From positions 186,001 to 250,000 of the forward strand of contig JAFLVO010000001.1 in assembly GCA_022508245.1 (NCBI GenBank): DNA of 64,000 nt, in the 5' to 3' direction. Within the stretch, counting starts at the first letter, position 1; every line of letters begins with the position of its first letter. Positions 7,039 through 45,586 of this stretch are shown here, one piece after another. Made by a program: the position numbers and the translations under genes. This DNA comes from Clostridiales bacterium. Its GTDB lineage: Bacteria > Bacillota > Clostridia > Christensenellales > Borkfalkiaceae. The notes beneath the pieces are model-generated. The model was not told the origin of the DNA. It saw only the letters and a program-made list of their open reading frames with translations, and did no database searches.

Positions 7039-9189
7039 ATGAACTTAAAGAGAAAAACGCTAATAGTGCTTTTATCGGTATTGTTTGCCGTAGTTGCCTC
7101 GTTATTTTTTATTACCGCTTGCAAAAAAAAGGGCAGTACCTCCGACGGGGAGGACGTATTTACCTACTCGGTTTCGGGCGACAGGGCAACCGTAACTGGC
7201 TACAAAGGCAAGAGTGCTGATATAGAAATTCCCGCAGAGTGGAACGGCTATCCCGTATCGGCTATCGGGAGCAGTGTATTTTATGGGAATACAAACCTTA
7301 AAAGCGTAAAAATTCCGTACAGCGTCATTTCAATCGGTAATTTTGCATTTCAGAGGTGTTCAAATCTTGAAAGCGTAAATATTCCGTACACCGTAACGTC
7401 TATCGGCGAGTATGCATTCAATGAAACCGCGCTTAAAAGTATAGAAATTCCCGAAAGTATTACCGCTATCGGTAACGGACTGTTCAAAGACTGCGCAAAC
7501 CTTAAAAGCATAGAAATCCACAGCGGCGTAACCTCAATTGAAAGTAGTGCGTTCTCAGGCTGTACAAGCCTTGAAAGTATAAGCTTCGGCAACAACAGTC
7601 AACTGACTTCTATCGGCACCGATGCGTTTGCGGATTGCATAAACCTTAAAGGCATAGAACTCCCCGATGGTTTAACTTCCATAGGACAGCTCACGTTTAG
7701 AAATTGTAAAAGTTTTAAAAGTATAGAAATACCCGAAAGCGTAACCTCTATAGGTATGCATACGCTCTATGGATGCGACAGCCTTGAAAGCATTACAATA
7801 CCTTTTTTAGGCGAAACGGAGGATGACACTTCAAATGCTTATCTGGGCTTTATGTTCGGTGCTTCAAACAACACGTTTAATTCAACCAACGTTCCGTCGT
7901 CTTTAAAAACCGTAACGGTAAAGAGCGGAGCCTTCGTAAGCGATCACGCTTTTTATGGTTGCAAAAACCTTAAAAGTATAACTATATCAAAAGAAGTAAC
8001 TTCCATCGGCACTTCAGCGTTTTCAGGGTGTTCAAGCCTTGAAGGCATAATTATTCCCGATAGCGTTACTTCAATAGGCGAGTACGCATTTTCTAATTGC
8101 TCAAACCTCAAAACTATAACAATTCCCGATAGCGTTACTTCAATCAGCGATTTTTCTTTCAACGGTTGCTCGGGGCTTGCAAGTATAGAGGTATCAAACG
8201 GCAACAACGTCTATCACAGCGCAGGCAACTGTTTAATAAAATCTGCCGACAAAGCTTTGATTGTGGGCTGTAAAAACAGCGTAATTCCCGCAGACGGCAG
8301 TATAACTTCCATAAGCGCCGCGGCATTCTATGGCTGTACGGGACTTAAAAGCATTGAAATTCCCGATAGTGTAAATTCTATCCACTTCTGGGCGTTCAAC
8401 GGTTGCACGGGGCTTGAAAGTATATTGGTTGCAAGCGGCAACAACGTCTATCGAAGTGAGGGGAACTGTTTAATAGAAATGGCGTCTAATACCCTGATTG
8501 CAGGCTGTAAAACCAGCGTAATCTCTGCGGACGGCAGTGTAACCTCTATCGGAGCGTATGCGTTCGACGGCTGTTCTACTCTTACAAGCATAGAAATTCC
8601 AGAATGTGTTACGACAATAGGGAATAGCGCGTTCGACGACTGCACTGGTCTTAAAAGCGTTACTTTCGGCGAAAACAGTCAGTTAATCTCTATTGGCATA
8701 GCGGCATTCAGCGGGTGCACAAGTTTAAAAAATATAACTATCCCCGACAGCATAACCTCGATAAGCGACGGGGCGTTCAGCGACACCGGACTTGAAAGTA
8801 TAATCATTCCCGACAGAGTAACATCTATCGGTATGTCTGCGTTCGATAAGTGTACAAGCCTTAAAAAGGTAACTCTCGGTAGCGGTATGCTTACTATAGG
8901 TACTGCTGCTTTCTATGACTGTTCAAACCTTAAAAGTATATTCATTCCCGAAAGTGTAACCTCTATCGGAATGTATGCGTTCGAGGGGTGCAAGAGCCTT
9001 GAAGCTATTTACTACGGCGGAACCGTAAGCCAATGGAACAATATATTGAGAGGCAGCAATAATACCGAGCTCCTGTTTGCAACGCGCTACTATTACAGCG
9101 AAAGCTACCCGTTTGACGGAGGACAAGAGGGTAATTTCTGGCACTACGACGAAATTACTGGCGAAATCGTCATTTGGAAAAAGCAATAA
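7039..9189 (+). CDS. BspA-type leucine-rich repeat (LRR_5) surface lipoprotein
   Basis: 716 aa. The N-terminus is a lipoprotein signal: basic start, long hydrophobic stretch and lipobox 'ITAC' with Cys28 as the probable lipidated residue. After a short linker come about 22 units of ~23 residues of the LRR_5 form (…L-x-S-I-x-I-P-x-S-V-T-S-I-G-x-x-A-F-x-x-C). Two units are lengthened by 'GNNVYxSxGNCLI' inserts (near residues 385 and 470). The C-terminus 'GEIVIWKKQ' is conserved enough that a copy survives at 33100–33129. Such proteins are usually adhesins or binding proteins on gut Firmicutes; the ligand is unknown. The AGGAG site precedes ATG at 7039. Confidence 0.9.
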   Translation: MNLKRKTLIVLLSVLFAVVASLFFITACKKKGSTSDGEDVFTYSVSGDRATVTGYKGKSADIEIPAEWNGYPVSAIGSSVFYGNTNLKSVKIPYSVISIGNFAFQRCSNLESVNIPYTVTSIGEYAFNETALKSIEIPESITAIGNGLFKDCANLKSIEIHSGVTSIESSAFSGCTSLESISFGNNSQLTSIGTDAFADCINLKGIELPDGLTSIGQLTFRNCKSFKSIEIPESVTSIGMHTLYGCDSLESITIPFLGETEDDTSNAYLGFMFGASNNTFNSTNVPSSLKTVTVKSGAFVSDHAFYGCKNLKSITISKEVTSIGTSAFSGCSSLEGIIIPDSVTSIGEYAFSNCSNLKTITIPDSVTSISDFSFNGCSGLASIEVSNGNNVYHSAGNCLIKSADKALIVGCKNSVIPADGSITSISAAAFYGCTGLKSIEIPDSVNSIHFWAFNGCTGLESILVASGNNVYRSEGNCLIEMASNTLIAGCKTSVISADGSVTSIGAYAFDGCSTLTSIEIPECVTTIGNSAFDDCTGLKSVTFGENSQLISIGIAAFSGCTSLKNITIPDSITSISDGAFSDTGLESIIIPDRVTSIGMSAFDKCTSLKKVTLGSGMLTIGTAAFYDCSNLKSIFIPESVTSIGMYAFEGCKSLEAIYYGGTVSQWNNILRGSNNTELLFATRYYYSESYPFDGGQEGNFWHYDEITGEIVIWKKQ

Positions 9190-9507
9190 GAATCTGAAAT
9201 TAAAACCGCTATATATTCACCCCGCCGGTCGGCGGGGTGTTCTGTTTATAATACGCCAAAAAGCGCGTAAATTCGATTTATTTCAATTTATTTCGAATAA
9301 TAGATACAATTTAATGCATATATTTTACTACTTGATATTAGTCGGGTTGTGTCAGATTATATATCTGAAACAGCCTCATTGCGGGGTAAAATATGTGGGA
9401 TTATATAAGCGAGAGAGTAGTAAAGGAAGCCGAGTACATAATAGCACAAAACGCCACTGTGCGCGCCGCCGCTTCACATTTTAATATATCCAAATCCACA
9501 GTACATA
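9160..9507 (+). repeat. Left copy of ~348-bp direct repeat flanking the genomic island
   Basis: This stretch (LRR gene tail, terminator, spoIIID leader and first codons) matches 33100–33448 at roughly 94% identity by eye, with scattered substitutions and one length difference in the terminator loop. Homology begins at 'ggcgaaat' inside the LRR gene and stops after 'gtacata' in the spoIIID coding region. The two copies bracket everything between 9.5 and 33.1 kb. Confidence 0.9.
9218..9248 (+). terminator. Rho-independent terminator of the LRR lipoprotein gene
   Basis: Nine-base-pair GC stem CACCCCGCC / GGCGGGGTG with loop GGTC, followed by a T-rich stretch. The equivalent hairpin in the right repeat (near 33158–33190) has one stem mismatch and a longer loop. 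Confidence 0.8.
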
Positions 9508-9521
9508 CGGTAGTGACTTAA
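9393..9521 (+). pseudogene. spoIIID: Truncated spoIIID (left repeat copy)
   Basis: Reads M-W-D-Y-I-S-E-R-V-V-K… for 42 codons and stops at TAA 9519–9521. The first ~38 residues match the intact SpoIIID at 33334 apart from one substitution (E for D at residue 7), including nearly all of the helix-turn-helix ('TVRAAASHFNISKSTVH'). After 'TVH' the homology ends and the frame reads T-V-V-T-stop. It lacks the basic C-terminal half, so it is probably non-functional, although its leader and ribosome site (GCGGGG, then ATG) are intact and a small HTH peptide could in principle be made. Confidence 0.85.
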
Positions 9522-15673: not shown

Positions 15674-15682
15674 GAGGGTAAA

Positions 15683-20827: not shown

Positions 20828-20964
20828 AAATGTAACTACCATAAAGAGTGTACGAGGGACAAGCCCGTTGACTACACAGCAACCTACCATATGGCAAGGT
20901 GCTAATGCTTGAATAGATGGGATAATATGAGTTAATGCCCATCTTAGCGATGGGTTTTCTTTTT
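20828..20964 (+). ncRNA. SAM-I (S-box) riboswitch with intrinsic terminator
   Basis: Diagnostic S-box blocks occur in order: AAGAG, a P2 stem GTGTA…TACAC enclosing GGGACAAGCCC, then CAGCAACC, AAGGTGCTAA and GATGGGA. P1 can pair TAACT/CAT (20830–20841) with ATGAGTTA (20929–20936). CCCATC (20938–20943) can pair with GATGGG (20949–20954) as a terminator with a T-run, or with AGATGGG (20915–20921) as an antiterminator. Block order and sequence match the metK leader of this window (45427–45541, minus strand). SAM binding should switch the gene off. Finding it before a non-methionine gene in an island is unusual. Confidence 0.85.
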
Positions 20965-21264: not shown

Positions 21265-21361
21265 AAGAAATAGTATAACTTTTAGTGTGTTTGTTGTAAT
21301 TGAACTTGCAGAAAATATGAAAAAATATTAAAAAATATTAGCGAAAACTAATTTTTGTCTA

Positions 21362-21390
21362 TTGCAATATTTGTCGTTTTGTGCTATACT
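21362..21390 (+). promoter_or_regulatory. Promoter of the XRE regulator
   Basis: TTGCAA (21362–21367), a 17-bp spacer and TATACT (21385–21390), about 27 bases before the ATG at 21418. Confidence 0.55.
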
Positions 21391-21417
21391 TATAATAGCG
21401 TAATATGGGGTATTAAT

Positions 21418-21627
21418 ATGACTATTAGTTATAAAAAACTTTGGAAATTACTTATTGATAAGGATATGAAAAAGAGTGATTTAATCAAAGTTTCAGGCAT
21501 CAGCGGCTATACGCTTAATAAGCTACTGAACGGTAAAACAGTTACAAGTGAAACGCTTATGAAAATTTGCATTGCGCTTGATTGTAGCTTTGACGATATT
21601 ATGGAAATTGTAGAAGTGAAAATTTAG
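21418..21627 (+). CDS. XRE-family (HTH_26-like) transcriptional regulator
   Basis: 69 aa from ATG 21418, which follows GGGG; the longer frame from 21355 would include the promoter. Residues ~5–65 form one Cro/C1-type helix-turn-helix: 'LWKLLIDKDMKKSDLIKVSGISGYTLNKLLNGKTVTSETLMKICIALDCSFDDIMEI'. No other domain is present. Small regulators of this form often control the adjacent cargo and their own promoter, so it is the natural repressor for the operon at 21741–31913. A 9-bp inverted repeat (TCATCTTTC 21649–21657 / GAAAGATGA 21688–21696) and a tandem TTGCAC-TTGCAC (21669–21680) lie between it and that operon and could be its operators. Confidence 0.85.
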   Translation: MTISYKKLWKLLIDKDMKKSDLIKVSGISGYTLNKLLNGKTVTSETLMKICIALDCSFDDIMEIVEVKI

Positions 21628-21740: not shown

Positions 21741-23147
21741 ATGAGATTTGCTTATAATAATTTATTAAAATTAAGAGTGGATGCTTATAAATATAGATCT
21801 TCCAAATTTTCAACTGAAAGACTATATTGTCCATGCTGTGGGGAACGTGTCACTTTTTTCCCTGAGAGTGCTGATGGAAAAAGTGCGCATTTCAGACACT
21901 ATCATGGAACGTATAGAGAAGATTGTGAAAATTATGTTAGTGGATACGACGCTTATGGGCAGCGAGTAAATAATAGTGAAATAAAGAATGAGTCCATTTT
22001 TTTCGAAAAGCGGGGGAATAGATATTTATTTACTATAAGAGTTTCTTTTTCAAAGGAAGAGTTAGATAAATATGAATTCAGCGAAGCAATTATGTATTTT
22101 AAAATTGTACATAATAATAATCCGGTTGAGTTCCAGCAGGCGCTTGATAGAAGATTTTTTTATGATAACCAAAAAGCATATATAGAGTTAAAGTCAGTCG
22201 GTGAGCATGTAATTAAAGTTTTAGATGGTGAATCTCAGAAATTTGAATTTATAAAAGGTATAACCTTTTTTAAAATGTTAGGCGATGCGGAATGGAACGA
22301 TAATACTTTTATTACAAAAAAGATTAATAAAAATGGCGATAACAGATTGTACTTAAATGAAAAATATGTACTAGTTGTGCCTAAATATAGCGTTATAAGC
22401 AATTCCTTTCGGATTATTCGCGCTGAAAGATCTCTGTCTCCAGTTGTGGATATTTACTTTATAGAAATAAATGACAGATCGCCATCCACAATAGCATTCT
22501 GTGAAAAGGGCGGATATGAGCTTTGTAACGTTAAAGAAAAGCTTACTATTTTATGGCCACCAGTTTTACAATGCGATGACGAGTTAATTACAAATCAAAA
22601 TGAAGTATTTCTAGATGCAAACTTTGATTTCATTTATGGGGCTACGATCAATACAAATGCCATTGATAGACTCAACGGATATAGCAGAGTTCGTATTGAT
22701 CCAGAAATAATAGTCGACGCAGGTAATATTCACGCAGTAATAAAATGTGACGAAATAAATCCAGTTGAAGAACTCCTTTTGGAAACCGTAATGCAAACTG
22801 CAAAAGAATATACGGTTGAAGAAAATAATGTATGCCTTGTTTCTTCCTTAGGTATTGCGAGGCTTGAAAAAAATGCCACTGTGAGATTGAATCGGAGAAG
22901 AGAAGTTAGAAGCTATTTGTCGACATATTTGTTGAAAAAAATTTCTTATGATTTGGAAGCTAAAAGCTATAGGGGTTTTTTGTTAGACGCTGTTCAGTAC
23001 GGGAAAACCACTAGAAAGTTTTTAGCGTCGGAGGTTTGTTATTACGGAGATAATCCATACGTATGGAATTATCTTATAGATTGTAGGAAAAACAAAAAAA
23101 TTAGTGAAGCTGCTTTAAAACTTATTAATGAGGTTAATCATGATTGA
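21741..23147 (+). CDS. CoiA-like zinc-binding protein, defence-operon gene 1
   Basis: 468 aa. The N-terminus carries 'CPCCGERV' (C30, C33) followed by 'AHFRHYHG' (H50, H53, H55). This C2H2-type arrangement is the one seen at the start of CoiA-like/nuclease-associated proteins that bind DNA. The rest (~90–468) is mostly beta-rich with no recognised catalytic motif; no PD-(D/E)xK pattern is evident by eye. It opens a tightly packed operon, its stop overlapping the next gene by 8 bases. Candidate role: DNA or modified-DNA recognition subunit for the helicase. This is inference from the zinc motif and position. Confidence 0.65.
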   Translation: MRFAYNNLLKLRVDAYKYRSSKFSTERLYCPCCGERVTFFPESADGKSAHFRHYHGTYREDCENYVSGYDAYGQRVNNSEIKNESIFFEKRGNRYLFTIRVSFSKEELDKYEFSEAIMYFKIVHNNNPVEFQQALDRRFFYDNQKAYIELKSVGEHVIKVLDGESQKFEFIKGITFFKMLGDAEWNDNTFITKKINKNGDNRLYLNEKYVLVVPKYSVISNSFRIIRAERSLSPVVDIYFIEINDRSPSTIAFCEKGGYELCNVKEKLTILWPPVLQCDDELITNQNEVFLDANFDFIYGATINTNAIDRLNGYSRVRIDPEIIVDAGNIHAVIKCDEINPVEELLLETVMQTAKEYTVEENNVCLVSSLGIARLEKNATVRLNRRREVRSYLSTYLLKKISYDLEAKSYRGFLLDAVQYGKTTRKFLASEVCYYGDNPYVWNYLIDCRKNKKISEAALKLINEVNHD

Positions 23148-24915
23148 TTTGATTAAAGTATTTAGCGATAAAGAACTGAAATATATAATAAGCGTAATAC
23201 CTACCCCTATTATAAGAGATTACTTTAAAAGGCATTCCAAAGATTTTCAAAGAATATTCCCTGGTTTTAGAGCAAAAGCAAATTTGCCGGCCGAACGGTT
23301 TTTAATTGAAATAAAGCGCAATAATGATTTCATTATTAACTTGGTTTCTGGTTTTTTAGAGCAAAGCGTTAAAGAAATAGATGAAGCCCTTGAGGAATTT
23401 AAAAAAGAAAATGATTGTGAAACAGCTCTTATAAAGACTTTAAGTAACAGTCATTTTTCGGGTAATCCTAACATCTATTTTAAACTAAAAAATGAAGAGA
23501 CAGATGAGCAAGCCGTCAGTATATTGTTAGCGGCAATAAAAATGTATGGGCAGCTTTCTAAGGAGAACAATTCCTTAAAAAGCGAACATGATAATTTAAA
23601 AAAGAAATTTGATGACGAATGCAAAACAAGTAAAGAGAATGCTGATATTATCAGCTCTATAAAAACGGAATTAGAAAGCTATAAAAGTACTAATAAAGAA
23701 TTAAATCAAAAAATTATTAAAAGAGATGAAGATCTTGAACAATTAAAATACGCTAACGAGATACTACGAGCTGATCTCAACAAGGCAAATGATGAAATAG
23801 AGCCATTAAAAACAGAACTATTAGAAGCAAAAAAGCAGATTAAAGTATTGCAAGAGGCTAAAAAAACTTTAATTTCTGATTTGGAAAGTTTAAAACTTAA
23901 GCTAAACGCTACATCAGATAATGCAGAAGAATTGCAAACTCGAATTGAAATTTTATCTAAAGAACTTGAAACGAAAGATTCGGAAATAATGGAGTTGCAA
24001 GAAAAACTGGCTGCAGCTCTTGAATCAAACACAACTAAAATAGAAGATACATCTAATCTTGAATTTCATGACGTCATTGCTGGCAATCAAAATAACGATC
24101 TTGTTCCAACTATTGAAGTAATAAAGGGAATTGCCAAAAATCATAATACATATTATTTTGTTGCTGATCATGAAGAGTTTAAAACTGATCTGGATTATTG
24201 CCTCATGGATGCCAATATTAGTGAGGGCAGAGAAGTTTTGAGCAACTATTTGGACAGGTTATATTCTGATGGAAAAATAATTGTCGGCAACAGAAAAGAT
24301 TGTAAATTTGTAGCCGAGTGTTTTTCATCTATTTTATGTGCAAGTGAATATACGAAAATTACGTATTTTGACGGCATAAAATTGCGTGATATCATTACCG
24401 CGGTTGAAAATGGCGGTAGAATTATTTATTTTGATAATTTTATAGGAAACTATAATGAGACAGTGCTAATATCTTTATTAAGCGGATTTAGGGATAAAAT
24501 TATTATAATCAGCGCAATGTACGATAAGATGTTTATGTATATTACACCAGATATTTTAAGGGATTGTAATTATATAAATTTGCAGCGATTAAATGTGCCT
24601 GATGATGTTGATTTTGAAAAATTCACCCGTGCAGAGCAGGCATCCATACATAAAAAAGAAATATTAGACAATGCTCCGACAGCAGCGTTGTTATCTATTT
24701 TGAGAGATCTTAAAATATCTGAACAAGTAAGGCGTTCATTGGCTATAAACATTAATAACCACGTTGATTCTGATGCGATTTTAACATTTGGGATACTTCC
24801 TTATCTGGTTGATGTGAGGGGGGAGACTCCTTTTGAGAATAGTGATAGACTGATGTCATATTATGAGAAGAACAAGAATAATAAATTTACTTTGAAGTGG
24901 TTTATATATGGATAA
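23140..24915 (+). CDS. Coiled-coil protein with AAA-like C-terminal region lacking Walker A, defence-operon gene 2
   Basis: 591 aa from ATG 23140, chosen because TGAGG stands 5 bases upstream; ATG 23128 lacks a site. Residues ~1–130 are globular. Residues ~135–300 are a long heptad-type coiled coil rich in Lys, Glu and Leu. The C-terminal ~270 residues look AAA-like: a Walker-B-like strand 'GGRIIYFDNF', a sensor-1-like 'KIIIISAMYDKM' and an ending helix bundle. No GxxxxGKT is present where Walker A should be ('IIVGNRKDCKFVAE' occupies the place). It may therefore be a non-hydrolysing scaffold. The stop overlaps the next gene by 8 bases. Confidence 0.65.
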   Translation: MIDLIKVFSDKELKYIISVIPTPIIRDYFKRHSKDFQRIFPGFRAKANLPAERFLIEIKRNNDFIINLVSGFLEQSVKEIDEALEEFKKENDCETALIKTLSNSHFSGNPNIYFKLKNEETDEQAVSILLAAIKMYGQLSKENNSLKSEHDNLKKKFDDECKTSKENADIISSIKTELESYKSTNKELNQKIIKRDEDLEQLKYANEILRADLNKANDEIEPLKTELLEAKKQIKVLQEAKKTLISDLESLKLKLNATSDNAEELQTRIEILSKELETKDSEIMELQEKLAAALESNTTKIEDTSNLEFHDVIAGNQNNDLVPTIEVIKGIAKNHNTYYFVADHEEFKTDLDYCLMDANISEGREVLSNYLDRLYSDGKIIVGNRKDCKFVAECFSSILCASEYTKITYFDGIKLRDIITAVENGGRIIYFDNFIGNYNETVLISLLSGFRDKIIIISAMYDKMFMYITPDILRDCNYINLQRLNVPDDVDFEKFTRAEQASIHKKEILDNAPTAALLSILRDLKISEQVRRSLAININNHVDSDAILTFGILPYLVDVRGETPFENSDRLMSYYEKNKNNKFTLKWFIYG

Positions 24916-25903
24916 GTTAATAGAGCAGATATCTCGTGATTTGAAAATTCCTCTATATAGTGACGAGGGATATGACAGCTTTTGTCAAAGAATTTTATAT
25001 TCTTCTCTAGGGATATGGTGCTTAAGCTATGCTAATAGAATGATTGAAAATCAAACTGGAATAAGTAAAAATGCTCTAACTAGGAAGGTTACTTCCTTAA
25101 TAGATTCTTATCTAAAGATATTCCCAAATTCGCAGAGCTATTTTAAAAGTGATAATTCTAGCGGATTACAAATCAGGCAAATTTATGAGGAGTTGGGATA
25201 CTTAATTTTAGAGGATCAAAGGCTCAAAATAGCCCCTTTTGGTAGAGGGTTAAAATTAGATAACGAGCGTTATTTGTATTACGGATTGCAAAAAGATTTT
25301 GAATATATGTCAGGTTTGGCAATTGTTACTTCTAGAGTAAAATACGTGGATTCAATAACGAATGTTTTGGTACGTGATGAAATTAACCCCATAGCGTATG
25401 TAAAATCTAATTACGATCCAGTTCTATTTAATAAATGGGATGCTGTTGTTGATGAGTTATTGTTTTTCGATCCATTGCATTCAGGGAATATTTCAAGTTC
25501 TTGGAAAAGCGAGCCGACAACTGAACTATCAATAGCAAAAAATGAACAATTAAATGTTTTTTATAAAGTAATCTGTAAAGATGGGAAGATATTATACTAT
25601 GTGAGTGAAAAAAGGGAAACCGACAAAGAGTCAATCTTCGGCTATGATTATCGAAGATTGTATTACTCGTTAAAATATTTCTATGGTAATCCATTTTCAC
25701 TTAAAATTAATGAATTGGATGATAATTATATTAAAATTAAAACATACGGCAGATTTCCGAATAGAGAACAATATTTTCTTTCGTTAATTGGTTGGCCATT
25801 GAATGATTTTGACAATAGGGATGAGTATATTGTTCGAAGGGATTTTTATCGTGTAGTTAAAGAAGCTATGCTAAAAATAGGTATTATTACAAATGAGGAT
25901 TAA
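24908..25903 (+). CDS. Unknown protein, defence-operon gene 3
   Basis: 331 aa; family not recognised. The N-terminal ~110 residues are helical and end in a strand pair ('EELGYLILEDQRLKIAPFG') that could form a winged helix. The C-terminal half is mixed alpha/beta with many Tyr, Phe and Asp residues and no nuclease or ATPase motif visible. It starts inside the previous gene and ends 3 bases before the helicase ATG, so its product should be made stoichiometrically with both. Small partner proteins of DruE-type helicases are poorly conserved, so a remote DruF/DruG-like subunit is possible. Confidence 0.6.
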   Translation: MDKLIEQISRDLKIPLYSDEGYDSFCQRILYSSLGIWCLSYANRMIENQTGISKNALTRKVTSLIDSYLKIFPNSQSYFKSDNSSGLQIRQIYEELGYLILEDQRLKIAPFGRGLKLDNERYLYYGLQKDFEYMSGLAIVTSRVKYVDSITNVLVRDEINPIAYVKSNYDPVLFNKWDAVVDELLFFDPLHSGNISSSWKSEPTTELSIAKNEQLNVFYKVICKDGKILYYVSEKRETDKESIFGYDYRRLYYSLKYFYGNPFSLKINELDDNYIKIKTYGRFPNREQYFLSLIGWPLNDFDNRDEYIVRRDFYRVVKEAMLKIGIITNED

Positions 25904-25906
25904 AAT

Positions 25907-28900
25907 ATGAAAAATGTATACGGCGTAAATGAAACATACACAAGCATACGGAATAGACTTGTAAATTATATAAAATCTGACTATTTAGCCAATAGTGAGC
26001 TTCTTTTAAATTACGCTGACGAATTGCTCTTAAATAATGATAAAAATCAAGCATTAAGTACAGAACCGTATATAGAGACATCAGCTTCATATGAACGCAA
26101 ATTAAACGGTATTAGTACTGCAAATATTGATGAAAAAGCTCGAGAAATTATGGCGGAACTAGCTGATAAGAAAATCGGCTTTTTTAAAGATCCTTTTTCT
26201 CATCAAATTCAAGCACTAGAGGCATTTAATAATGGGCAAGATGTGTTCGTTTCAACAGGAACGGGTTCAGGTAAAACCGAATGTTTTTTATGGCCAATTA
26301 TCTACAATTCAATTTGCGAAGGATTACATCGCCCTGATCAGTTTGCGATGCATGCCATGCGCACTTTGATTATTTATCCGATGAATGCGTTAGTATCGGA
26401 TCAAATTGGGAGATTTAGGAAGGTTTTAGGCTCTCAAGATTTTAGAGAAACATTTATTAGTAAAACACATGCTGAGAGAATTCCTTGTTTCGGAATGTAT
26501 ACGGGAAGAACAGCATATTCAGGGGATTCTTTAAGACAAAAGAACAGCGAACTTGCCGCACTTTATAGTAGTAGGTTTATTTATAAAGAGGGGGAGGATG
26601 AAAGCAAACTTAAAAGTATTGAAGCGCTAAAAAGTATTAATAAATATCCTGCAAAGTATGATTTTGATAACTTTATTAAAAATTTAGAAGAAGGCAAACA
26701 TATGCCTCATCCATATGATGCGGAATTGATTACTAGGTTTGAAATGCAAAAGCAAACTCCAGATATCTTAGTTACCAACTATTCTATGCTGGAATATATG
26801 CTTATGCGTAAAAAAGAATCAAATATATGGGACGATACTAAAAAATGGCTCAATAAATCAAAAGAGAACAAGCTGTTAATTGTATTAGATGAAGCTCACA
26901 TGTATAGAGGTTCTTCAGGTGGTGAAATTTCATTACTGATTAGCCGATTGTTGTCAAGGATTGGTATAAAATCAGATCGAGTTCAATTTATTATAACAAC
27001 AGCAAGTATGCCTCAGGATGATTTGGAAGTTATCCATAATTTTTATAGTGGGTTAACCGGGAAAGCACCCAATGAATTAATATTGTTTGGACAAAGAGAA
27101 GTTTTGTCGGATGACTTCTCAGTAACGACAGATATTGACAAATTATGTGAGGTATGGGTTCCTGAAAAGCTAGATACTGACCAAGATGTGGTTTCGCATA
27201 TTATAAAAGTTGCGAAAATAATTTTCAATACTGAACTGGCAAAAGACATTAGTCTTAACTCTGCTGAAGAGTGGCTTTATGATAACTTACTAAAATATGA
27301 GGCTTTTATAAAACTAAAAAAAGAATGTAGAGAAGGAGCGAAAAGCTTAACAGAATTAAAAGAGAGCATTTTTAATAGCGCAGTAAATAGTGAGAAGGCT
27401 TTGGATGCCCTGATTTCAATTGCACCTTTGGCAAAGAAAGATAACTCCGTGCTTTTCCCTGCACGTCTTCATCTATTTGTTCGTGGCTTACAAGGTATCT
27501 ATGCGTGCGTTAATCCTTATTGTCATTGTGCGAAAAGCGGCGTCAACGACGAGGTAAAAATTGGTCGCATAACATCAGTCCATAAAGAGAAATGTGAGTG
27601 CGGCGCAAAAGTATATGAACTTATAAACCATGTTAGATGCGGAGGGCTATTTATTAAAGGATGGATGGCTGAAAAGCAATCACAGAAATATGTGTTTGCC
27701 TCTCCCGGATTAAATGACGACAATTCTGAAGTTCGAGAAATTCATTTGTATTTAAGACCGGATAATTATTCTAAAGAAAGAGGGGAATCAGGTCATGTGT
27801 TAGGCTTGTTAGATCCTTTTTCTGGGATGCTGTACGATGACGATGGTACTGGATCAAGGCAAGGATGTCTTCCTGTCTTATACGGTGCTTATGTAGAGAG
27901 GGTTAAGGCTAGAACATTCAACACGTGTCCCAAATGCAAAAAACAAATGCAATTTAAAAGATTGACTGACTTATCGACAAAGGGCAATATACCATTTTAC
28001 AATCTTGTTAAAGCACAATTTGATACTCAGCCCGTAGTTAAGCCTGCGCTTAAAAATGGCGGCAAAAAAGTGCTGGTATTTTCAGATAGTAGAAATAATG
28101 CATCCACTTTAGCTAAAGATTTGTCAGATTCATCCGATGCGGATGCATTTAGGCAAATTGTTGTGTTGGCAATAAAAAAGCTTGAAGAAGCAAGCCGAGT
28201 TAATAATCAATCTTATAGTATAAATTCGTTATATGCGGCATTTTTGCAAATGTCAGCAGAGAATAATATAGATTTCTTTAGCGGCGATGACAGGCAAACA
28301 TTCCTGCTAAACAGAGAAAAGTTTATGTCTATGGTGACACGAGCTACTGCTAGGGGAAGAATTCCTGATTATAATTCGAGTTTTGTGGTACAGTCCCAGT
28401 ATTACAAGCAGCTTCTTACTTTTCTTTGTGAAAGTCCTCGTTCCATTAAAGACATAAGCATTGGTTGGGTTGAGCCGACTGCGCAAAGGTTGGAAGATTG
28501 TTTAGATGACTTAAAACAAAAGAATATAATGGTTTCCCAGGAAGAATTATATAAGTTAATCGTATTAGTGTTCTGGGATATTATGGACAAATATTGTGCC
28601 CTTGGTAATACAATAGAGGATGGTGTTAGAAAACTTCTGCCGGGTCGCTCACAATCTGAATTAGGATTAATAAAACCTTTGATAGAATCGATAGATTCGG
28701 CTATGTTTGATACATTAAAAAGCGTTCTGCATTTAACTGATATTCAAGCAACGGAGGTTATCAATACAATAGAACGCAATTTCTTGGATGTAAACAATGA
28801 AGGGAGAAAATATATTTCATTAGAAGCATCTATGATTCATTTACCAGGCGATGACCATGAGTGGATAAAGTGCTTAAGATGTGGTAAGATATCGTCATTT

Positions 28901-31075
28901 AAACTTGGTAATTATTGTGGCGATTGCTTCAAATCTAAAGATATTATTGTAGTAAAATCTGATGCGCTTAGCCGATTTGAATTTTGGCGCAATCCATTGA
29001 TAAAAGCTGATGAAGGAGTACATAAAATCGATACGGAAGAGCATACTGCTCAATTATCGCATAAGGGCGAGGAAGATATTTGGTCTATTACTGAAGTGTA
29101 TGAAATGCATTTTCAGGATGTTGATGTGGGAGAAAATGGAGAAAACTCAATTGATGTTTTGAGCTGTACAACCACAATGGAAGTGGGTATTGATATTGGT
29201 TCCTTGACTGCAGTTGGGATGAGAAATATTCCGCCCATGCGAGAGAATTATCAACAAAGAGCCGGTCGTGCAGGCAGAAAAGGTTCGCAAGTTTCTACTA
29301 TTATTTCCTTTGCAGGGGCGGGTGTTCATGATAGTCATTTCTTTAAGCACCCTGAAGAAATGATATCTGGTAAACCTAGGAAACCATGGATAGATAGGGA
29401 TAATCCTCGAATATTAGATAGGCATTATGCAATGCTTTTATTTAATGATTTTATGAATTCGTCTCAGAATATGAGTAGAGTTGATAGTATAGAGGCTTTA
29501 GGAATTCTGGATTTTTGCGAGAAATACTTTGATGAATTTAAGATGTATTTAAATACCTTTGATAAAATCCCAGAGAAAAACAAGGTATCTTTATTAAGTA
29601 AGTTATGTTTAACTAAAGATAAAATTTTGAGTAATAGGGATAGGTATATAAAAAATAATAATTCCCAAAGCAATGTTTTGGAGATATTACAACAAGAAGG
29701 AATAATTCCTACATATTCTTTTCCGAGAGACGTTGTTAGTTTTTTTGTTGAAGAACAAGCGAGCAGATTTGAAACTCCAAAGGTTAAATATGCTCCGAGT
29801 AGAGATTTAGCGTTAGCTATTAGTGATTATGCGCCTGGAAGATTTATAACCATTGATAAAAAAATCTACAAGAGTGGTGGAATTTATTGTAATCCTAGAC
29901 CCAAAGGGTTTAACGATAATCAAGCAGAATATTACTTTAGAGAAAGAGATTATATATGCTCCATCTATTTTTGTGAAGATTGCAATTGGTTTGGTGAGCA
30001 ACCAGAATCGGGAGTTTGTCCCTTCTGTGGAGCAAATGTATCAGAACGTAAAGTGCTTAGACCTTGGGGGTTTGCGCCAGAAAGAGCTACTTCAGTAAAA
30101 TATGAGGATGTAGAAGAGGAAAAAACTTTTGCTAGTGTTCCTTATTATTCTCATGTTCCTAAATCAGAGGATATGCTTCATACAGCATATAAAAATATAC
30201 GAGTGGCAAAACCAGAGGCAATGACAGATAAGCCCGTAATTATTGTAAATATGGGAAATTCTAGAAATCAAGGTTTTGATATTTGTACTGTTTGTGGTGG
30301 CGCTCAAGTTTCTGATGATGCTGAACCACACGTAAGTCAGCCATACCATAGCCCTCATCTCTGCAGAAATCACAGGTATGAGCATAATGTTTTTTTGGGC
30401 TATGAATTTAGAACCGATATGTTTATGCTAGAGATGGTTTATGATAAATTACAGTTGTCTGATGATAGACGCATTCAGAAATCTGCGATTGAATCATTAA
30501 TGGAAGCGTTGCACCGTGCAATTACTCTAGAATTGGATATTGATTATAATGAGATAAATTGCGGATATATCACAAGACGTTCTGATACGCATAGTAATAT
30601 TTTCTATATAGAAATGTTTTTCTATGATAATTTGTCAAGCGGTGCAGGATATTCCTCACAAATAGGTTCGATTTTGCCTATGGTTTTTGACAGGGCAAAG
30701 GATCTTTTGAATTGTGATTGTGATAAATCTTGCCGTCATTGTTTAGATAATTTCTGGAACCAAAGAAAACATAATTTGCTTGATCGAAAGTTGGCGTTGC
30801 AATTATTAAACTGGGTTGTTCAGGAAGAAAAGCCTACTAACTATTCATTTGTGCAGAAAAGTAATTTATTATCACCTTTGCGCGCAATGTTTAAGGATAT
30901 AGGCGATGACTTGACTAAAACGTCAGATTCGTATTATTATAATGGATGTAAAATAGAAGTTATCCCTTCTTTGTTGCGCAAACCTTCAGATACAAGTGAT
31001 ACTATATTTTTAAATAGACATGATTTGACTGATTGGCTTCCGGATTCATTTATGCGAGTTTTCAGAAGAAAATAA
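25907..31075 (+). CDS. DruE/DISARM-type SF2 helicase with C-terminal DUF1998
   Basis: 1722 aa. The helicase core has Walker A 'STGTGSGKT' (K123), a 'YPMNALVSDQ' motif Ia, 'DEAH' (328–331), 'TTASMP' as motif III, 'TTTMEVGIDIG' as motif V and 'QQRAGRAGR' (1116–1124) as motif VI. The two RecA lobes are separated by a ~700-residue insert. Cysteine pairs forming about five zinc ribbons lie near residues 530–580, 680, 990–1010, 1350–1380 and 1465. The DUF1998 end carries C1603/C1605/C1609/C1612. Single chains combining a DEAH helicase and DUF1998 at this size are typical of DruE (Druantia); DISARM splits the same parts into DrmA and DrmB. It should track on DNA and drive the system. Confidence 0.9.
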   Translation: MKNVYGVNETYTSIRNRLVNYIKSDYLANSELLLNYADELLLNNDKNQALSTEPYIETSASYERKLNGISTANIDEKAREIMAELADKKIGFFKDPFSHQIQALEAFNNGQDVFVSTGTGSGKTECFLWPIIYNSICEGLHRPDQFAMHAMRTLIIYPMNALVSDQIGRFRKVLGSQDFRETFISKTHAERIPCFGMYTGRTAYSGDSLRQKNSELAALYSSRFIYKEGEDESKLKSIEALKSINKYPAKYDFDNFIKNLEEGKHMPHPYDAELITRFEMQKQTPDILVTNYSMLEYMLMRKKESNIWDDTKKWLNKSKENKLLIVLDEAHMYRGSSGGEISLLISRLLSRIGIKSDRVQFIITTASMPQDDLEVIHNFYSGLTGKAPNELILFGQREVLSDDFSVTTDIDKLCEVWVPEKLDTDQDVVSHIIKVAKIIFNTELAKDISLNSAEEWLYDNLLKYEAFIKLKKECREGAKSLTELKESIFNSAVNSEKALDALISIAPLAKKDNSVLFPARLHLFVRGLQGIYACVNPYCHCAKSGVNDEVKIGRITSVHKEKCECGAKVYELINHVRCGGLFIKGWMAEKQSQKYVFASPGLNDDNSEVREIHLYLRPDNYSKERGESGHVLGLLDPFSGMLYDDDGTGSRQGCLPVLYGAYVERVKARTFNTCPKCKKQMQFKRLTDLSTKGNIPFYNLVKAQFDTQPVVKPALKNGGKKVLVFSDSRNNASTLAKDLSDSSDADAFRQIVVLAIKKLEEASRVNNQSYSINSLYAAFLQMSAENNIDFFSGDDRQTFLLNREKFMSMVTRATARGRIPDYNSSFVVQSQYYKQLLTFLCESPRSIKDISIGWVEPTAQRLEDCLDDLKQKNIMVSQEELYKLIVLVFWDIMDKYCALGNTIEDGVRKLLPGRSQSELGLIKPLIESIDSAMFDTLKSVLHLTDIQATEVINTIERNFLDVNNEGRKYISLEASMIHLPGDDHEWIKCLRCGKISSFKLGNYCGDCFKSKDIIVVKSDALSRFEFWRNPLIKADEGVHKIDTEEHTAQLSHKGEEDIWSITEVYEMHFQDVDVGENGENSIDVLSCTTTMEVGIDIGSLTAVGMRNIPPMRENYQQRAGRAGRKGSQVSTIISFAGAGVHDSHFFKHPEEMISGKPRKPWIDRDNPRILDRHYAMLLFNDFMNSSQNMSRVDSIEALGILDFCEKYFDEFKMYLNTFDKIPEKNKVSLLSKLCLTKDKILSNRDRYIKNNNSQSNVLEILQQEGIIPTYSFPRDVVSFFVEEQASRFETPKVKYAPSRDLALAISDYAPGRFITIDKKIYKSGGIYCNPRPKGFNDNQAEYYFRERDYICSIYFCEDCNWFGEQPESGVCPFCGANVSERKVLRPWGFAPERATSVKYEDVEEEKTFASVPYYSHVPKSEDMLHTAYKNIRVAKPEAMTDKPVIIVNMGNSRNQGFDICTVCGGAQVSDDAEPHVSQPYHSPHLCRNHRYEHNVFLGYEFRTDMFMLEMVYDKLQLSDDRRIQKSAIESLMEALHRAITLELDIDYNEINCGYITRRSDTHSNIFYIEMFFYDNLSSGAGYSSQIGSILPMVFDRAKDLLNCDCDKSCRHCLDNFWNQRKHNLLDRKLALQLLNWVVQEEKPTNYSFVQKSNLLSPLRAMFKDIGDDLTKTSDSYYYNGCKIEVIPSLLRKPSDTSDTIFLNRHDLTDWLPDSFMRVFRRK

Positions 31076-31088
31076 ATAGGAGATTCTA

Positions 31089-31913
31089 ATGATTTCTTCA
31101 CCGTTAAGATATCCAGGCGGAAAGGGACGTATGTACCAATTCGTCAAGAACTTAATTATTGAAAATGGTTTTGAAGAACTTATCTATGCCGAGCCTTTTT
31201 CTGGAGGGTTTGGGATAGGAATTAAACTATTAACCGCTGGCGATATCAAAAGAGTTATTATTAATGACTTTGATGAACATATTTATGCCTTTTGGGTTTC
31301 AGTTTTTAAGTATAGCAAAAGATTAATTAAACTCATAGAAGAAACTCCGGTTGATATGGAAAACTGGAATACGCAAAAAGAAATTTATAACACCTATAAA
31401 GGGAAATCATTAGTTAAGAAGGGATTTGCTGCGTTTTATCTTAACAGGACTAATTTTTCCGGAGTCATTACGGGTGGTCCGTTAGGTGGTATTGCTCAGA
31501 AAAGCAAATACAATTTGGGTTGCAGGATGAATAAACAGCAACTTATTGACCAAATAAAGGAGCTTGCGCAGTATAAAGATTCTGTGGAAATTTATAATTA
31601 TGATGCTATACAGTTTATTTCTAAAATAGTGTTGCCCAAACAAAAAAAGATTTTTCTGAATTTGGATCCCCCCTATGTTATCAAGGGCTCGGAATTATAT
31701 AGAAATTTTTATGAATATGAGGATCACATAAAACTGGCAAGATTTATTAAAGATAATCTTAAAGAGGCTTATTGGATAGTAACATATGATGATTGTGATT
31801 TAATACGAGAATTGTTTAGTGAATTTGATTTACAGGAATATACACTAACCCATATGGCAGGAAAGTCAAAAGTTGGTAAAGAATTACTTATAAAAAATTT
31901 TAATATAAATTAA
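31089..31913 (+). CDS. D12-class DNA adenine-N6 methyltransferase (Dam-like)
   Basis: 274 aa. The family order alpha is visible: 'SPLRYPGGKGR' near the N-terminus, SAM-binding motif I 'YAEPFSGGFG' (~34–43) and catalytic motif IV 'DPPY' (193–196). The target-recognition helical region lies between them. AGGAG stands 7 bases before the ATG and only 13 bases separate it from the helicase stop, so it is part of the operon. It probably marks host DNA so that the helicase complex spares it. The recognition sequence cannot be read from the protein. Druantia II is known for a cytosine methylase and DISARM class 1 for an adenine one, so this pairing is a mixed layout. Confidence 0.9.
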   Translation: MISSPLRYPGGKGRMYQFVKNLIIENGFEELIYAEPFSGGFGIGIKLLTAGDIKRVIINDFDEHIYAFWVSVFKYSKRLIKLIEETPVDMENWNTQKEIYNTYKGKSLVKKGFAAFYLNRTNFSGVITGGPLGGIAQKSKYNLGCRMNKQQLIDQIKELAQYKDSVEIYNYDAIQFISKIVLPKQKKIFLNLDPPYVIKGSELYRNFYEYEDHIKLARFIKDNLKEAYWIVTYDDCDLIRELFSEFDLQEYTLTHMAGKSKVGKELLIKNFNIN

Positions 31914-32075: not shown

Positions 32076-32108
32076 GATATCGTCAAAAATTATATATCTA
32101 AGGCGTAG

Positions 32109-32140
32109 CGTCGTACCAAAACCGGTACGGCGTTATTTTT
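32109..32140 (+). terminator. Hairpin terminator or leader attenuator
   Basis: Stem CGTCGTACC / GGTACGGCG (one T–G wobble) with loop AAAACC, followed by TTATTTTT. It lies ~35 bases after the putative promoter at 32047, so it may act as an early attenuator for the next gene as well as ending the defence operon. Confidence 0.6.
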
Positions 32141-32948: not shown

Positions 32949-33099
32949 GATAAGTGGCAAAAAACGGTCAAAGTTTTCTTATATGTTTTGGTTCGGATAA
33001 CCGCTACCGTTAAGAGCGTGTAAATAAGCAACAGTAACAAGTTCCTGTTCTCAACTTTGATAAAATGCAAGGAATGTGGTTGGTCGTTTCGGCAAGGCG

Positions 33100-33448
33100 G
33101 GCGAAATTGTCATTTGGAAAAAACAATAAGAACCTGAAATTAAAAACGCTATATATTTACCACGCCTTTTTGGCGGGGTGTTTTGTTTATAAAGCGTCAA
33201 AAACCGCGCAAATTCGATTTATTTCAATTTATTTCGAATAATAGATACAATTTAATGCATATATTTTACTACTTTATATTAGTCGGGCTGTGTCAGATTT
33301 GATATCTGAAACAGCCTCATTGCGGGGTAAAATATGTGGGATTATATAAGCGATAGAGTAGTAAAGGAAGCCGAGTACATAATAGCACAAAACGCCACCG
33401 TGCGCGCCGCCGCTTCACATTTTAATATATCCAAATCCACAGTACATA
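33100..33448 (+). repeat. Right copy of ~348-bp direct repeat flanking the genomic island
   Basis: Begins with the last codons of an LRR lipoprotein gene ('GEIVIWKKQ', stop 33127–33129), without the rest of that gene. It then repeats the terminator, the spoIIID leader with its TCAGAT…ATCTGA hairpin (33293–33308), and the spoIIID start. Bases 32949–33099 before it show no gene. Confidence 0.9.
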
Positions 33449-33591
33449 AGGACGTGACGGAGAGGTTGCGCAGCGTTGACGAGGAGCTCTTTGAAAAGGT
33501 GCGCGAGGTCTTAAACAAAAACCTGTCTGAAAGGCACATCCGCGGCGGTCAGGCAACGAAAAACAAGTATATGCATTGCGATCACGGCTAA
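33334..33591 (+). CDS. spoIIID: SpoIIID, sporulation transcriptional regulator (mother cell)
   Basis: 85 aa. The start 'MWDYISDRVVKEAEYIIAQNATVRAAASHF' and 'SKSTVHKDVTERL' match the SpoIIID family closely in order and length (Bacillus protein ~93 aa). Residues ~22–46 are the helix-turn-helix, and the C-terminal 'ERHIRGGQATKNKYMH' is the second DNA-binding region. SpoIIID switches mother-cell genes on and off between sigma-E and sigma-K during spore formation, so its presence argues that the host sporulates. GCGGGG stands before the ATG. Only this copy is complete; the left repeat carries the truncated one. Confidence 0.92.
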   Translation: MWDYISDRVVKEAEYIIAQNATVRAAASHFNISKSTVHKDVTERLRSVDEELFEKVREVLNKNLSERHIRGGQATKNKYMHCDHG

Positions 33592-33628
33592 TTTTTTATT
33601 TTTTAGTAAAAATTGTATGTTCATAAAT

Positions 33629-33658
33629 TTGCACAAGAAAAAAATTTTATGATATAAT
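33629..33658 (+). promoter_or_regulatory. Promoter of the dehydratase-activase operon
   Basis: TTGCAC (33629–33634), an 18-bp spacer and TATAAT (33653–33658), 37 bases before the ATG. Confidence 0.6.
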
Positions 33659-33695
33659 CATAATCAGCGAAATATACGGTCATACGGAACACAGA

Positions 33696-36620
33696 ATGCA
33701 AAAGCTTTTGGGCATAGACGTCGGCTCAACCACGGTCAAAGCGGCGGTTATCGACGAAAACAACAACGTAATATACAAGTCCTACGTCAGGCACTATTCC
33801 AAGGTTAAGGAAACCGTGCTTGCCGAGCTGAACGAAGTTAAAAAGCTCGGCGGCGAGTTTTCTGTATGCATTACGGGAAGTGCCGGACTCGGACTTTCAC
33901 AGCGCAGCGGCGTAAATTTCGTTCAGGAAGTGCAGGCTGCGTTTATTGCTATACGCAAATATTATCCTCAGACGGACGCGGCTATAGAGCTGGGCGGCGA
34001 GGACGCAAAAATTATATTTGTCACGGGCGGAACCGAACAGCGCATGAACGGCAGCTGTGCGGGCGGAACGGGAGCGTTCATAGACCAAATGGCTACCCTC
34101 TTGAATATATCCGTTTCCGAGATGGACGAGTACGCGCTGCGGGCAAAGAAGACCTATCCCATAGCTTCGCGCTGCGGCGTATTTGCAAAGTCGGATATTC
34201 AGCCCCTTTTAAATCAGGGCGCGAAAAAGGAAGACATTTCGGCTTCAATTTTCCAGGCTGTCGTCGACCAAACGGTGTCGGGGCTTGCACAGGGCAGAAG
34301 AATTAAGGGCAATGTCCTTTTTTTGGGTGGACCTCTGCACTTTTTAAAGGGACTTAGAAAGGCTTTCGTCACGACTTTAAAGCTCGACGACGAAAGCGCA
34401 ATTTTCCCCGAAAACGCCCCCTGCTTTATGGCGATAGGCGCGGCGCTGTATTCCGCAAATTTCGAGGCGGAATCCATTGAAGGAATTATCGAGAGAATAT
34501 CCTCCTCCAAATCAAGTGACGAAATTATCACGGGCAAGCCTCTCTTTTCAAGCAAGGAGGAGTACTCCGAATTTGTCAAAAGGCACAGAGCAACCGACCT
34601 CAAATTTGCGGACATTGCAACCTATAAGGGTGACGCATATTTAGGAATAGACTCGGGTTCTACGACTACCAAGCTTATGCTTATTACCAGGGACTGTCGA
34701 ATTTTATGGTCGCACTATCAGACGAACAACGGTCAGCCTCTCGATATAGTTGTCAAAAAGCTCAATGAACTATATCAGCTTCTCCAAGACAGAATTAATA
34801 TACGCGCCGCAGCGGTAACGGGCTACGGCGAGGATTTAATAAAGAACGCAATAAAAGCCGACTTCGGAATCGTTGAAACGGTTGCGCACTTCAAGGCGGC
34901 TCTGCATTTCAACCCCAAGGTCGATTTTATTATCGATATCGGCGGGCAGGACATAAAGTGCTTCAAGATTAAAAACGGCGCAATCGACTCCATAATGCTC
35001 AACGAGGCGTGTTCCTCGGGTTGCGGTTCGTTCATTCAGACCTTTGCCCGCGCAATGGGCATGGAGATAAACAAGTTTGCCGAGAAAGGACTGTATGCAC
35101 AGCATCCCGTAGAGCTTGGCTCGCGCTGCACTGTATTTATGAACAGCGCCGTAAAGCAGGCGCAGAAAGAGGGTGCAACGGTGGACGATATTTCGGCGGG
35201 ACTGTCCTCGTCAATCGTCAAAAACGCAATTTACAAGGTTATCCGTGCAACGAGCGCGGACGAACTCGGTAAAAACATAGTCGTTCAGGGCGGAACATTC
35301 TTAAACGACGCCGTTTTGCGCTCATTTGAAATGGAGACGGGCAAAGAGGTGGTAAGACCGGGAATTGCAGGGCTCATGGGTGCGTTCGGTGCGGCGCTGT
35401 ACGCCAAGGAAAACATAAAGAGCGAGAGCACCGTTGCAACGGCGGAGGAGCTCAAAGAGTTCACTTACACCGCGCAGGGCGCAAATTGCGGCGGATGTAC
35501 CTCAAAATGCCATATAAACATAATAAGATTCAGCGACGGCAGAAAATATATTTCGGGCAACAAGTGCGAGAAGGGCGCGGGCAAAAAGGTTGCTTCCAAC
35601 CACCTCGATATATACGCTTTCAAGCAGGCGAGGCTTCACGACGCTATTCATGGCGTAACGCATACGGCACCCCGCGGTAAGGTGGGGCTTCCTCTTCAGC
35701 TCGGCATGTACGAACAGCTTCCTCTCTGGGCTGGCTTCTTTGAAAAGCTCGGCTTTGAAGTAGTCTTATCCGACAAATCGACGCGAGATTTATACTTCAG
35801 AGGTCAGCACACAGTCGCTTCGGACACGGCTTGCTATCCTGCTAAACTTATGCACGGGCATATTGAAAGCCTTTTAGACAAGGGTGTGGACTTCATCTTC
35901 CTGCCCTGCGAAAGCTATAACATAGACGAGCACTGCTCGGTAAATCACTTCAACTGCCCCGTCGTTGCGTACTATTCCGAGCTTTTGAAAGCCAACAACG
36001 AGCGGCTTACGGACGCAAACTTTTTGATGCCCTACATAGATTTGAATATGCGCGCTTCAACCGTGAAGAAACTGCGCGCTGCGCTCTCCAAATACAATTT
36101 CAAAAAGAGCCAAATCGACGAGGCGCTTGACGAGGGCTTTGAAAGGCTAAAATCCTACAAAGAGGACGTCGTTGCAAAGACGGACGAAATTTTATGGAAA
36201 GCCGAACAGGAGGAAAAGCAAGTAATAGTTCTCGCCGGCAGACCCTATCATCTCGACCCAGAGATAAATCACGATATAAACAAAATTTTGACCTCGCTCG
36301 GCTTTGCCGTTTTATCGGAGGACGGTGTGAGCGAAAAAGGCGCAAAGGTCAAAGTCAACGTATTAAATCAATGGACGTATCACTCACGGTTATACCGTGC
36401 GGCGGACTTCGTATCGCACAGAAAGAACGTAAATCTCGTTCAGCTCGTATCGTTCGGCTGCGGACTTGACGCAATAACCGCGGACGAGGTTCGTGCCATA
36501 TTAGAGAAAAACGGCAAACTCTACACACAGATTAAGATAGACGAAATCAACAATTCTGGCGTTGTAAAAATAAGACTTCGGAGTATGCTTGCGGCAATAC
36601 AAGAGGCAAGCGGCAAGTGA
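33696..36620 (+). CDS. Acyl-CoA dehydratase activase-like protein (double BcrAD ATPase + DUF2229), N-terminal part
   Basis: 974 aa. Two ASKHA-fold BcrA/BadF/HgdC-type domains are seen: the first opens with 'LGIDVGSTTVKAAV' (residue ~4), the second with 'LGIDSGSTTTKLML' (~315). The 4Fe-4S cysteines are in 'GSCAGGTGAFIDQ'/'SRCGVF' and 'EACSSGCGSFI'/'SRCTVF'. From ~655 a DUF2229 region follows ('KVGLPLQLGMYEQLPLWAGFFEKLGF'). Related proteins in other Firmicutes are usually single chains of ~1400 residues. Here the chain stops at 974 and the rest is encoded by the next, overlapping gene in another frame. It is expected to pump a low-potential electron with ATP; the physiological substrate of these stand-alone versions is unknown. 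Confidence 0.88.
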   Translation: MQKLLGIDVGSTTVKAAVIDENNNVIYKSYVRHYSKVKETVLAELNEVKKLGGEFSVCITGSAGLGLSQRSGVNFVQEVQAAFIAIRKYYPQTDAAIELGGEDAKIIFVTGGTEQRMNGSCAGGTGAFIDQMATLLNISVSEMDEYALRAKKTYPIASRCGVFAKSDIQPLLNQGAKKEDISASIFQAVVDQTVSGLAQGRRIKGNVLFLGGPLHFLKGLRKAFVTTLKLDDESAIFPENAPCFMAIGAALYSANFEAESIEGIIERISSSKSSDEIITGKPLFSSKEEYSEFVKRHRATDLKFADIATYKGDAYLGIDSGSTTTKLMLITRDCRILWSHYQTNNGQPLDIVVKKLNELYQLLQDRINIRAAAVTGYGEDLIKNAIKADFGIVETVAHFKAALHFNPKVDFIIDIGGQDIKCFKIKNGAIDSIMLNEACSSGCGSFIQTFARAMGMEINKFAEKGLYAQHPVELGSRCTVFMNSAVKQAQKEGATVDDISAGLSSSIVKNAIYKVIRATSADELGKNIVVQGGTFLNDAVLRSFEMETGKEVVRPGIAGLMGAFGAALYAKENIKSESTVATAEELKEFTYTAQGANCGGCTSKCHINIIRFSDGRKYISGNKCEKGAGKKVASNHLDIYAFKQARLHDAIHGVTHTAPRGKVGLPLQLGMYEQLPLWAGFFEKLGFEVVLSDKSTRDLYFRGQHTVASDTACYPAKLMHGHIESLLDKGVDFIFLPCESYNIDEHCSVNHFNCPVVAYYSELLKANNERLTDANFLMPYIDLNMRASTVKKLRAALSKYNFKKSQIDEALDEGFERLKSYKEDVVAKTDEILWKAEQEEKQVIVLAGRPYHLDPEINHDINKILTSLGFAVLSEDGVSEKGAKVKVNVLNQWTYHSRLYRAADFVSHRKNVNLVQLVSFGCGLDAITADEVRAILEKNGKLYTQIKIDEINNSGVVKIRLRSMLAAIQEASGK

Positions 36621-45541: not shown

Positions 45542-45586
45542 TTTGAATGTATTATATCATTGTGCAAAAGTGTTGTCAAACAAAAG

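Follow-up and report, generated by a model that had tools for sequence, protein, structure and literature searches.

A DruA-less Druantia type I-like operon with a D12-class adenine methylase in Bacillota

Introduction

Contig JAFLVO010000001.1 of a Clostridiales bacterium (GenBank assembly GCA_022508245.1) carries an operon of five open reading frames (ORFs) that encodes the DruB, DruD and DruE proteins of Druantia type I, a protein in the position of DruC and a D12-class N6-adenine DNA methylase, without DruA. It lies at positions 21741-31913, on the + strand, of the 64,000-nucleotide stretch analysed here (contig positions 186,001 to 250,000), which we refer to as the window. Here, we show the composition of this operon, its conservation in other genomes, its association with a D12 methylase and the exchange of that methylase between loci. 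With moderate confidence, we read the operon from its sequence as a Druantia I-like system against phages, from a branch without DruA, that would spare its own DNA by adenine methylation. The source genome (G000) comprises 1.66 Mb in 17 contigs, is 97.6% complete and gave a single match in a helicase search, that of the window itself.

Results

Composition of the operon

The ORF coordinates describe a real operon, with all five genes on the + strand. Gene 1 (21741..23147) encodes DruB, a protein of 468 residues in which an N-terminal C-x2-C...H...C zinc-finger-like pattern is followed by a beta-rich body. Gene 2 (23128..24915) encodes the 595-residue protein in the DruC position, which consists of an N-terminal domain, a long coiled coil and a C-terminal domain without a conserved P-loop. 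DruD, of 331 residues, is encoded by gene 3 (24908..25903), and DruE, a YprA-family superfamily 2 helicase of 1722 residues with MZB/DUF1998, by gene 4 (25907..31075); gene 5 (31089..31913) encodes the 274-residue methylase. Successive genes meet at junctions of -20, -8, +3 and +13 bases, as the initial annotation, made from the sequence alone, had described (overlaps or gaps of 3-13 bases). The gene set is conserved elsewhere, a point on which that annotation also holds: the arrangement is more than chance, since the same five genes stand in the same order in four other genomes (loci L047, L048, L057 and L083), and a sixth locus, L062, has the methylase in divergent orientation.

The five proteins were compared with PADLOC models and Pfam; for gene 4 the PADLOC comparison covers the best 25 of 36 matches. 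Gene 1 matches PDLC00003 DruB1 (145 bits, residues 1-464 of 468), gene 3 matches PDLC00008 DruD1 (304 bits, residues 1-328) and gene 4 matches PDLC00013 DruE1 (1777 bits, residues 2-1719), with DruE2 as the runner-up at 633 bits. These profile matches firmly assign genes 1, 3 and 4 to DruB, DruD and DruE of Druantia type I. Gene 4 also matches the Pfam families DEAD (70.7 bits), Helicase_C (35.9 bits) and MZB, the DUF1998 region (42.8 bits), and is thus the DruE-type helicase with DUF1998 in one chain that had been proposed. Its motifs GTGSGKT, DEAH and QRAGRAGR are invariant in 25/25 aligned sequences, 24 of which were chosen from 120 listed relatives. Genes 1-3 had been described as three unfamiliar partners; this description stands for gene 2, whose matches are confined to its coiled coil, and falls for genes 1 and 3. 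The profile search assigns these two, and not gene 2, to a system that already has a name; the gene set itself does occur in other genomes.

Four DruB residues (C30, C33, H53 and C62) are near-invariant among 33 aligned sequences. Its AlphaFold model has a predicted local distance difference test score (pLDDT) of 80 and a predicted template-modelling score (pTM) of 0.54, and found no match in the PDB at an E value of 0.001; a fold search with DruD gave no match either. The label 'CoiA-like' first given to gene 1 could not be confirmed: no Pfam family matches at an E value of 0.1, and what is left is the near-invariant C-x2-C...H...C pattern, whose resemblance to CoiA we presume. DruB was considered as a CoiA-type nuclease and rejected, as it has no Pfam family and its nearly invariant residues hold no conserved nuclease motif. 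No nuclease family was recognized by Pfam in genes 1-4, and the aligned DruE sequences contain no invariant D/E/K set behind DUF1998; the idea that the C-terminal end of DruE acts as a nuclease was rejected on this basis. Inactivated Vsr domains have been predicted for Druantia types I and II in passages of PMC12458937.

The PADLOC matches of gene 2 fall along its coiled coil only, with DruC1 at 12 bits; by position and coiled coil, the protein holds the DruC slot. Its homologues are 43% (L057), 27% (L047), 25% (L048), 28% (L062) and 25% (L083) identical to it. Gene 5 was correctly recognized at the outset as a D12 adenine methylase (PF02086 MethyltransfD12, 65.6 bits), and its nearest PADLOC model is PDLC04018 PD-Lambda-5_B (333 bits). 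This methylase, with intact catalytic motifs (DPPY and the motif I/X residues), adjoins the effector genes. Across the methylases of all six loci, SPLRYPGGK, EPF.GG.G and DPPY do not vary, so all six are predicted to be active.

Association of the methylase with one DruE clade

The DruD1 model matched 10/391 genomes of the class and 2/301 of the family; genome draws around other centres, which like the others overlap in part, gave 3/295, 1/269, 1/29, 1/6 and 1/59. Full-length DruE1 matches above 1700 bits occurred in 3/398 genomes of the phylum (G330, G355 and G000). DruE of the window type was found at six loci in five families: the window, L057 (same genus), L047 (Hydrogenispora ethanolica), L048, L083 and L062 (Paenibacillus oralis), the two species being named from identical protein rows. 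At five of the six loci, in five genomes of four families, the order druB-C-D-E-methylase is kept on one strand. The methylase follows druE by 13 bases in the window, 24 in L057, 3 in L047, 7 in L048 and 4 in L083; the window value comes from ORF coordinates and the other four from a locus comparison whose window row omitted stop codons.

A D12 methylase is present at 6/6 window-type loci, at 0/12 loci of the sister DruE clade and at 0/5 DruA-bearing loci, as judged by a motif scan independent of gene calling, with which profile scans of the loci agree. The sister loci are L050-L054, L056, L063-L066, L002 and L003. Because L002 shows no more than 252 bases after druE and is nearly a copy of L003, the 12 amount to 11 independent loci, or to 10 if the full downstream flank and one copy are required. 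We dropped L055 (G630; DruD matched weakly and the stretch lacked DruE), L049 (DruE truncated where the contig ends), L067 and L078 (incomplete DruE), L072 (short upstream sequence), and L073-L077, L079 and L080 (other kinds of DruE).

In a FastTree phylogeny of 48 DruE proteins, which carried long-branch warnings, the six D12-linked rows lie inside one 30-row clade (support 100), the 12 sister loci group together (support 93) and the DruA-bearing loci form a separate branch (support 100). The D12 methylase is therefore likely to be linked to one DruE clade. This link is probably old, because the deepest fork of this clade separates some of the six loci from the others. The sister loci are druBCDE-like operons without a D12 methylase and, in the eight genomes searched whole, without DruA. 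Among 20 neighbouring proteins picked for Pfam comparison, several are defence proteins (GmrSD, McrBC-like, and type I and type III restriction), and the sister clade is apparently a four-gene form amid varied restriction genes. It is free of the D12 methylase and not of every methylase, since L051 has an Eco57I-class methylase with a ResIII gene directly behind druE and L053 has HsdM nearby.

Exchange of the methylase

Over the six loci, pairwise identities of DruB (r 0.99), the DruC-position protein (r 0.93) and DruD (r 0.98) correlate with those of DruE, and those of the methylase do not (r 0.27); the 15 pairs behind each value are not independent. L047 and L062, for example, are 83% identical in DruE and 42% in the methylase. 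In a methylase tree with a background of viral-contig methylases (the best 80 from a scan), the enzymes of the window, L057, L047 and L083 form one clade (100/97) that spans three families, and those of L048 and L062 fall among the viral-contig methylases. By the approximately unbiased (AU) test, a single clade of all six methylases was rejected (p-AU 2e-10). Two five-row groupings were picked for testing after the tree was seen: the four-enzyme clade plus L048 was rejected (p-AU 2e-64), and the same clade plus L062 was marginal (p-AU 0.042), which makes the case for a separate origin of the L062 enzyme a marginal one. These tests give good support to one methylase replacement and make a second likely. 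The comparisons of sequence thus show that the methylase has not been inherited in step with druBCDE. As its identities do not track those of DruE and a single clade is rejected, the methylase slot appears to have been kept while the enzyme in it was exchanged.

The same exchange can also be read as the mark of a loose neighbour. Phages and islands often carry D12 methylases, and defence genes tend to cluster, so that druBCDE might work alone, as the sister clade seems to, with the methylase merely beside it. The low correlation with DruE, the viral affinities of the L048 and L062 enzymes, the lack of a D12 methylase at all 12 sister loci and the divergent gene in L062 speak for this explanation. 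Yet in five genomes of four families the methylase occupies the same slot on the same strand, starting 3-24 bases after druE, and it is present at 6/6 loci vs 0/17 others. The clade shared by the window, L057, L047 and L083 across three families further argues for a long joint history of these four enzymes. We therefore regard a mere neighbour as unlikely, and favour the methylase as a component of the system.

Relation to known defence systems

Druantia type I is DruABCDE in passages of PMC13316683 and PMC7251935. The operon resembles it in its nearly full-length matches to the DruB, DruD and DruE models and in the order B-C-D-E; it differs in that it has no DruA, its gene 2 is not recognized as DruC and its 3' end carries an additional gene, for a D12 adenine methylase. 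Druantia type II (DruM, DruF, DruG and DruE) likewise combines a DruE helicase with a DNA methylase. DruM is a cytosine methylase, and DruF, DruG and DruM are not among the PADLOC families listed for the five proteins. The DruE2 score of the operon, 633 bits, also contrasts with 1777 bits for DruE1. Type IV (DruE, DruF and DruL in passages of PMC8565338) is a further case of DruE with an altered set of partners; its partners are other ones, and the DruE4 score of the operon is 575 bits. DISARM and ARMADA (the latter as described in passages of PMC12458937) share with the operon a YprA/DUF1998 helicase and an adenine-type DNA methylase. In contrast to the separate DrmA and DrmB of DISARM, the operon has helicase and DUF1998 in one 1722-residue chain, with a DrmA match of 39 bits, and it lacks a BrxHII/RapA helicase and a PglX-type methylase. 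Placement in DISARM or Druantia II was rejected on the PADLOC matches.

Although the operon had initially been thought to fall between Druantia and DISARM, genes 1, 3 and 4 are the DruB, DruD and DruE1 of Druantia type I, and it is a Druantia I branch without DruA to which a methylase has been added. Searches of an open-licence library, which took in neither supplements nor the 2018 Druantia paper, gave no description of a DruBCDE that lacks DruA and comes with a D12 methylase; to that extent, the earlier suggestion of an undescribed composition holds. The lineage itself is not new, since PADLOC models already cover its DruB, DruD and DruE; the DruB and DruD of L083 score 730 and 530 bits on DruB1 and DruD1.

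PD-Lambda-5 supplies the best model for gene 5, whereas genes 1-4 match no PD-Lambda-5 model among the listed families. According to its finders, in passages of PMC9519451, it is a compacted restriction-modification and abortive-infection system, tested in a host without the mrr region. This kinship makes it conceivable that the methylase belongs to the attack itself or licenses it: it would mark DNA that is entering the cell or replicating, and methylated or hemimethylated DNA would then be what the DruE complex acts on. Such a role is rather improbable, as Pfam recognized no modified-base reader domain in genes 1-4 and methylated host DNA would come under attack too.

Search for DruA

No match to PF14236 (DruA, DUF4338) was found in the whole genome G000, and the control genomes of that search also gave none; the same search found DruA in G330 at 283 bits, which indicates that it can detect the protein. 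The absence of DruA noted at the outset is thus upheld. When 14 genomes with DruBCDE-like loci were searched whole, 1/14 was positive (G330), and the other 13 lacked DruA: four of the D12 clade (G000, G884, G355 and G496) and nine others. Four further genomes (G1350, G1574, G1194 and G1294) were compared with the G330 DruA in their locus stretches, outside the whole-genome search, and G1350 and G1574 gave no match within 19.9 kb. The operon might also be an ordinary Druantia I next to a methylase that has nothing to do with it, its druA having been lost locally, being unlinked or having escaped the assembly. In favour of this, its DruB, DruD and DruE are recognized type I proteins and the genome is a 17-contig draft. 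We consider it very improbable, as whole-genome searches found DruA in G330 but in 0/4 D12-clade and 0/9 other DruBCDE-like genomes, and DruA-bearing DruE proteins form their own branch. The comparison suggests that what is inherited together in these Bacillota is DruBCDE and not DruABCDE.

G330 itself (L046, 3431-15917) has a different variant, in which DruB, DruC, DruD and DruE are followed by an overlapping gene of 391 residues with Cas4/DruK-like PD-(D/E)XK matches. DruA lies on the opposite strand, behind this gene.

Genomic context

The operon lies in a segment bounded by a direct repeat of ~358 bp, with the left copy at 9160..9517 (+) and the right copy at 33100..33458 (+), as identified by repeat comparison. 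The copies align over 67 nucleotides at 91% and 287 nucleotides at 95% identity, 23.9 kb from start to start. A close relative, G1017 (L086), is 98% identical to the window in the 974-residue protein at 33696; it has one repeat copy and lacks the 23.9-kb segment, the counterpart of window 7038-9517 being joined directly to that of 33098-33903. This genome belongs to the family draw in which DruD1 matched only G000 and G884. The operon thus lies within 23.9 kb that were gained or lost through an event which either left the repeat behind or made use of it. Against a simple gain or loss, synteny with G1017 to the left of the repeat amounts to one leucine-rich-repeat gene, the next gene being 30% identical. 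Three more distant relatives have the right flank alone in common. No integrase was recognized by Pfam in the nine segment genes scanned apart from the operon. The segment also holds an AAA_14/DUF4143 gene, kinase-like and HAD genes, a TIM-barrel/IucA_IucC fusion, a beta-lactamase-fold gene and a DUF6100 gene.

A terminator-like hairpin (32105..32136, +; 13 pairs and a T-rich tail) stands 3' of the methylase as a consensus match only, and the window has 19 such sites vs 6.4 expected from shuffled sequence. Two S-adenosylmethionine (SAM) riboswitches were found in the window, at 20836-20923 (+, 52 bits) and 45460-45543 (-, 54 bits). The former sits 0.8 kb 5' of the operon, ahead of a small ORF and a helix-turn-helix gene (21355-21627) that is Xre/VanU-like at 61 bits, under the cut-off of that family. 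At L062 in Paenibacillus, positions 15257-16954 encode a 565-residue protein with a long Gly/Ser-rich repeat stretch, between the divergent druB and D12 methylase genes; it matches no Pfam family, and its start is, we presume, ParB-like.

Discussion

In the proposed mechanism, DruB, the DruC-position protein and DruD would assemble with the DruE motor into a complex acting on phage DNA. The methylase would mark host DNA at N6-adenine and so shield it from this complex, as in DISARM or restriction-modification. Because no intact nuclease is recognized in genes 1-4, we consider blocking by unwinding or translocation, or with the help of another nuclease, more probable than cleavage by the operon itself. 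Since the methylase has been exchanged beside DruE proteins up to 83% identical, the complex may read a mark that several D12 lineages make, or take its specificity from the methylase; a separate fixed target owned by the complex would be disfavoured.

Several observations weigh against a methylation-based self-mark in this branch, or against parts of it. Only six loci carry the association of DruBCDE with a D12 methylase, two of them from one genus, and a six-row DruE subclade (P0034 and five others) has no locus among those read. As the sister clade lacks a D12 methylase and, where searched, DruA, such a mark is not needed by all DruA-less DruBCDE systems. In L062, druBCDE run in one direction, and a gene of 565 residues and then the methylase run in the opposite one; with this divergence and the gene in between, the methylase may belong to something else. 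As for DruC, its models match the gene 2 counterpart in 0/5 related loci, and a gene 2 profile showed no link to the counterparts in DruA-bearing loci; nor did a DruD profile to the proteins in the DruD position, which counts against DruD membership. In both profile comparisons the DruA-bearing side consisted of four viral loci and one genome, the viral rows being fitted by position only.

A bolder version of the self-mark reading, which we offer tentatively and think unlikely, takes the mark to be an exchangeable cartridge. DruBCDE would have no fixed target and would use any D12 methylase behind it, with phage-related methylases captured as a self-label that replaces DruA.

A DruA-less branch with a methylase would provide a direct handle on how Druantia I separates self from foreign DNA, and on the role of DruA. 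With the core conserved and the methylase exchanged, it can be tested whether the choice of target lies in the methylase or in DruBCDE.

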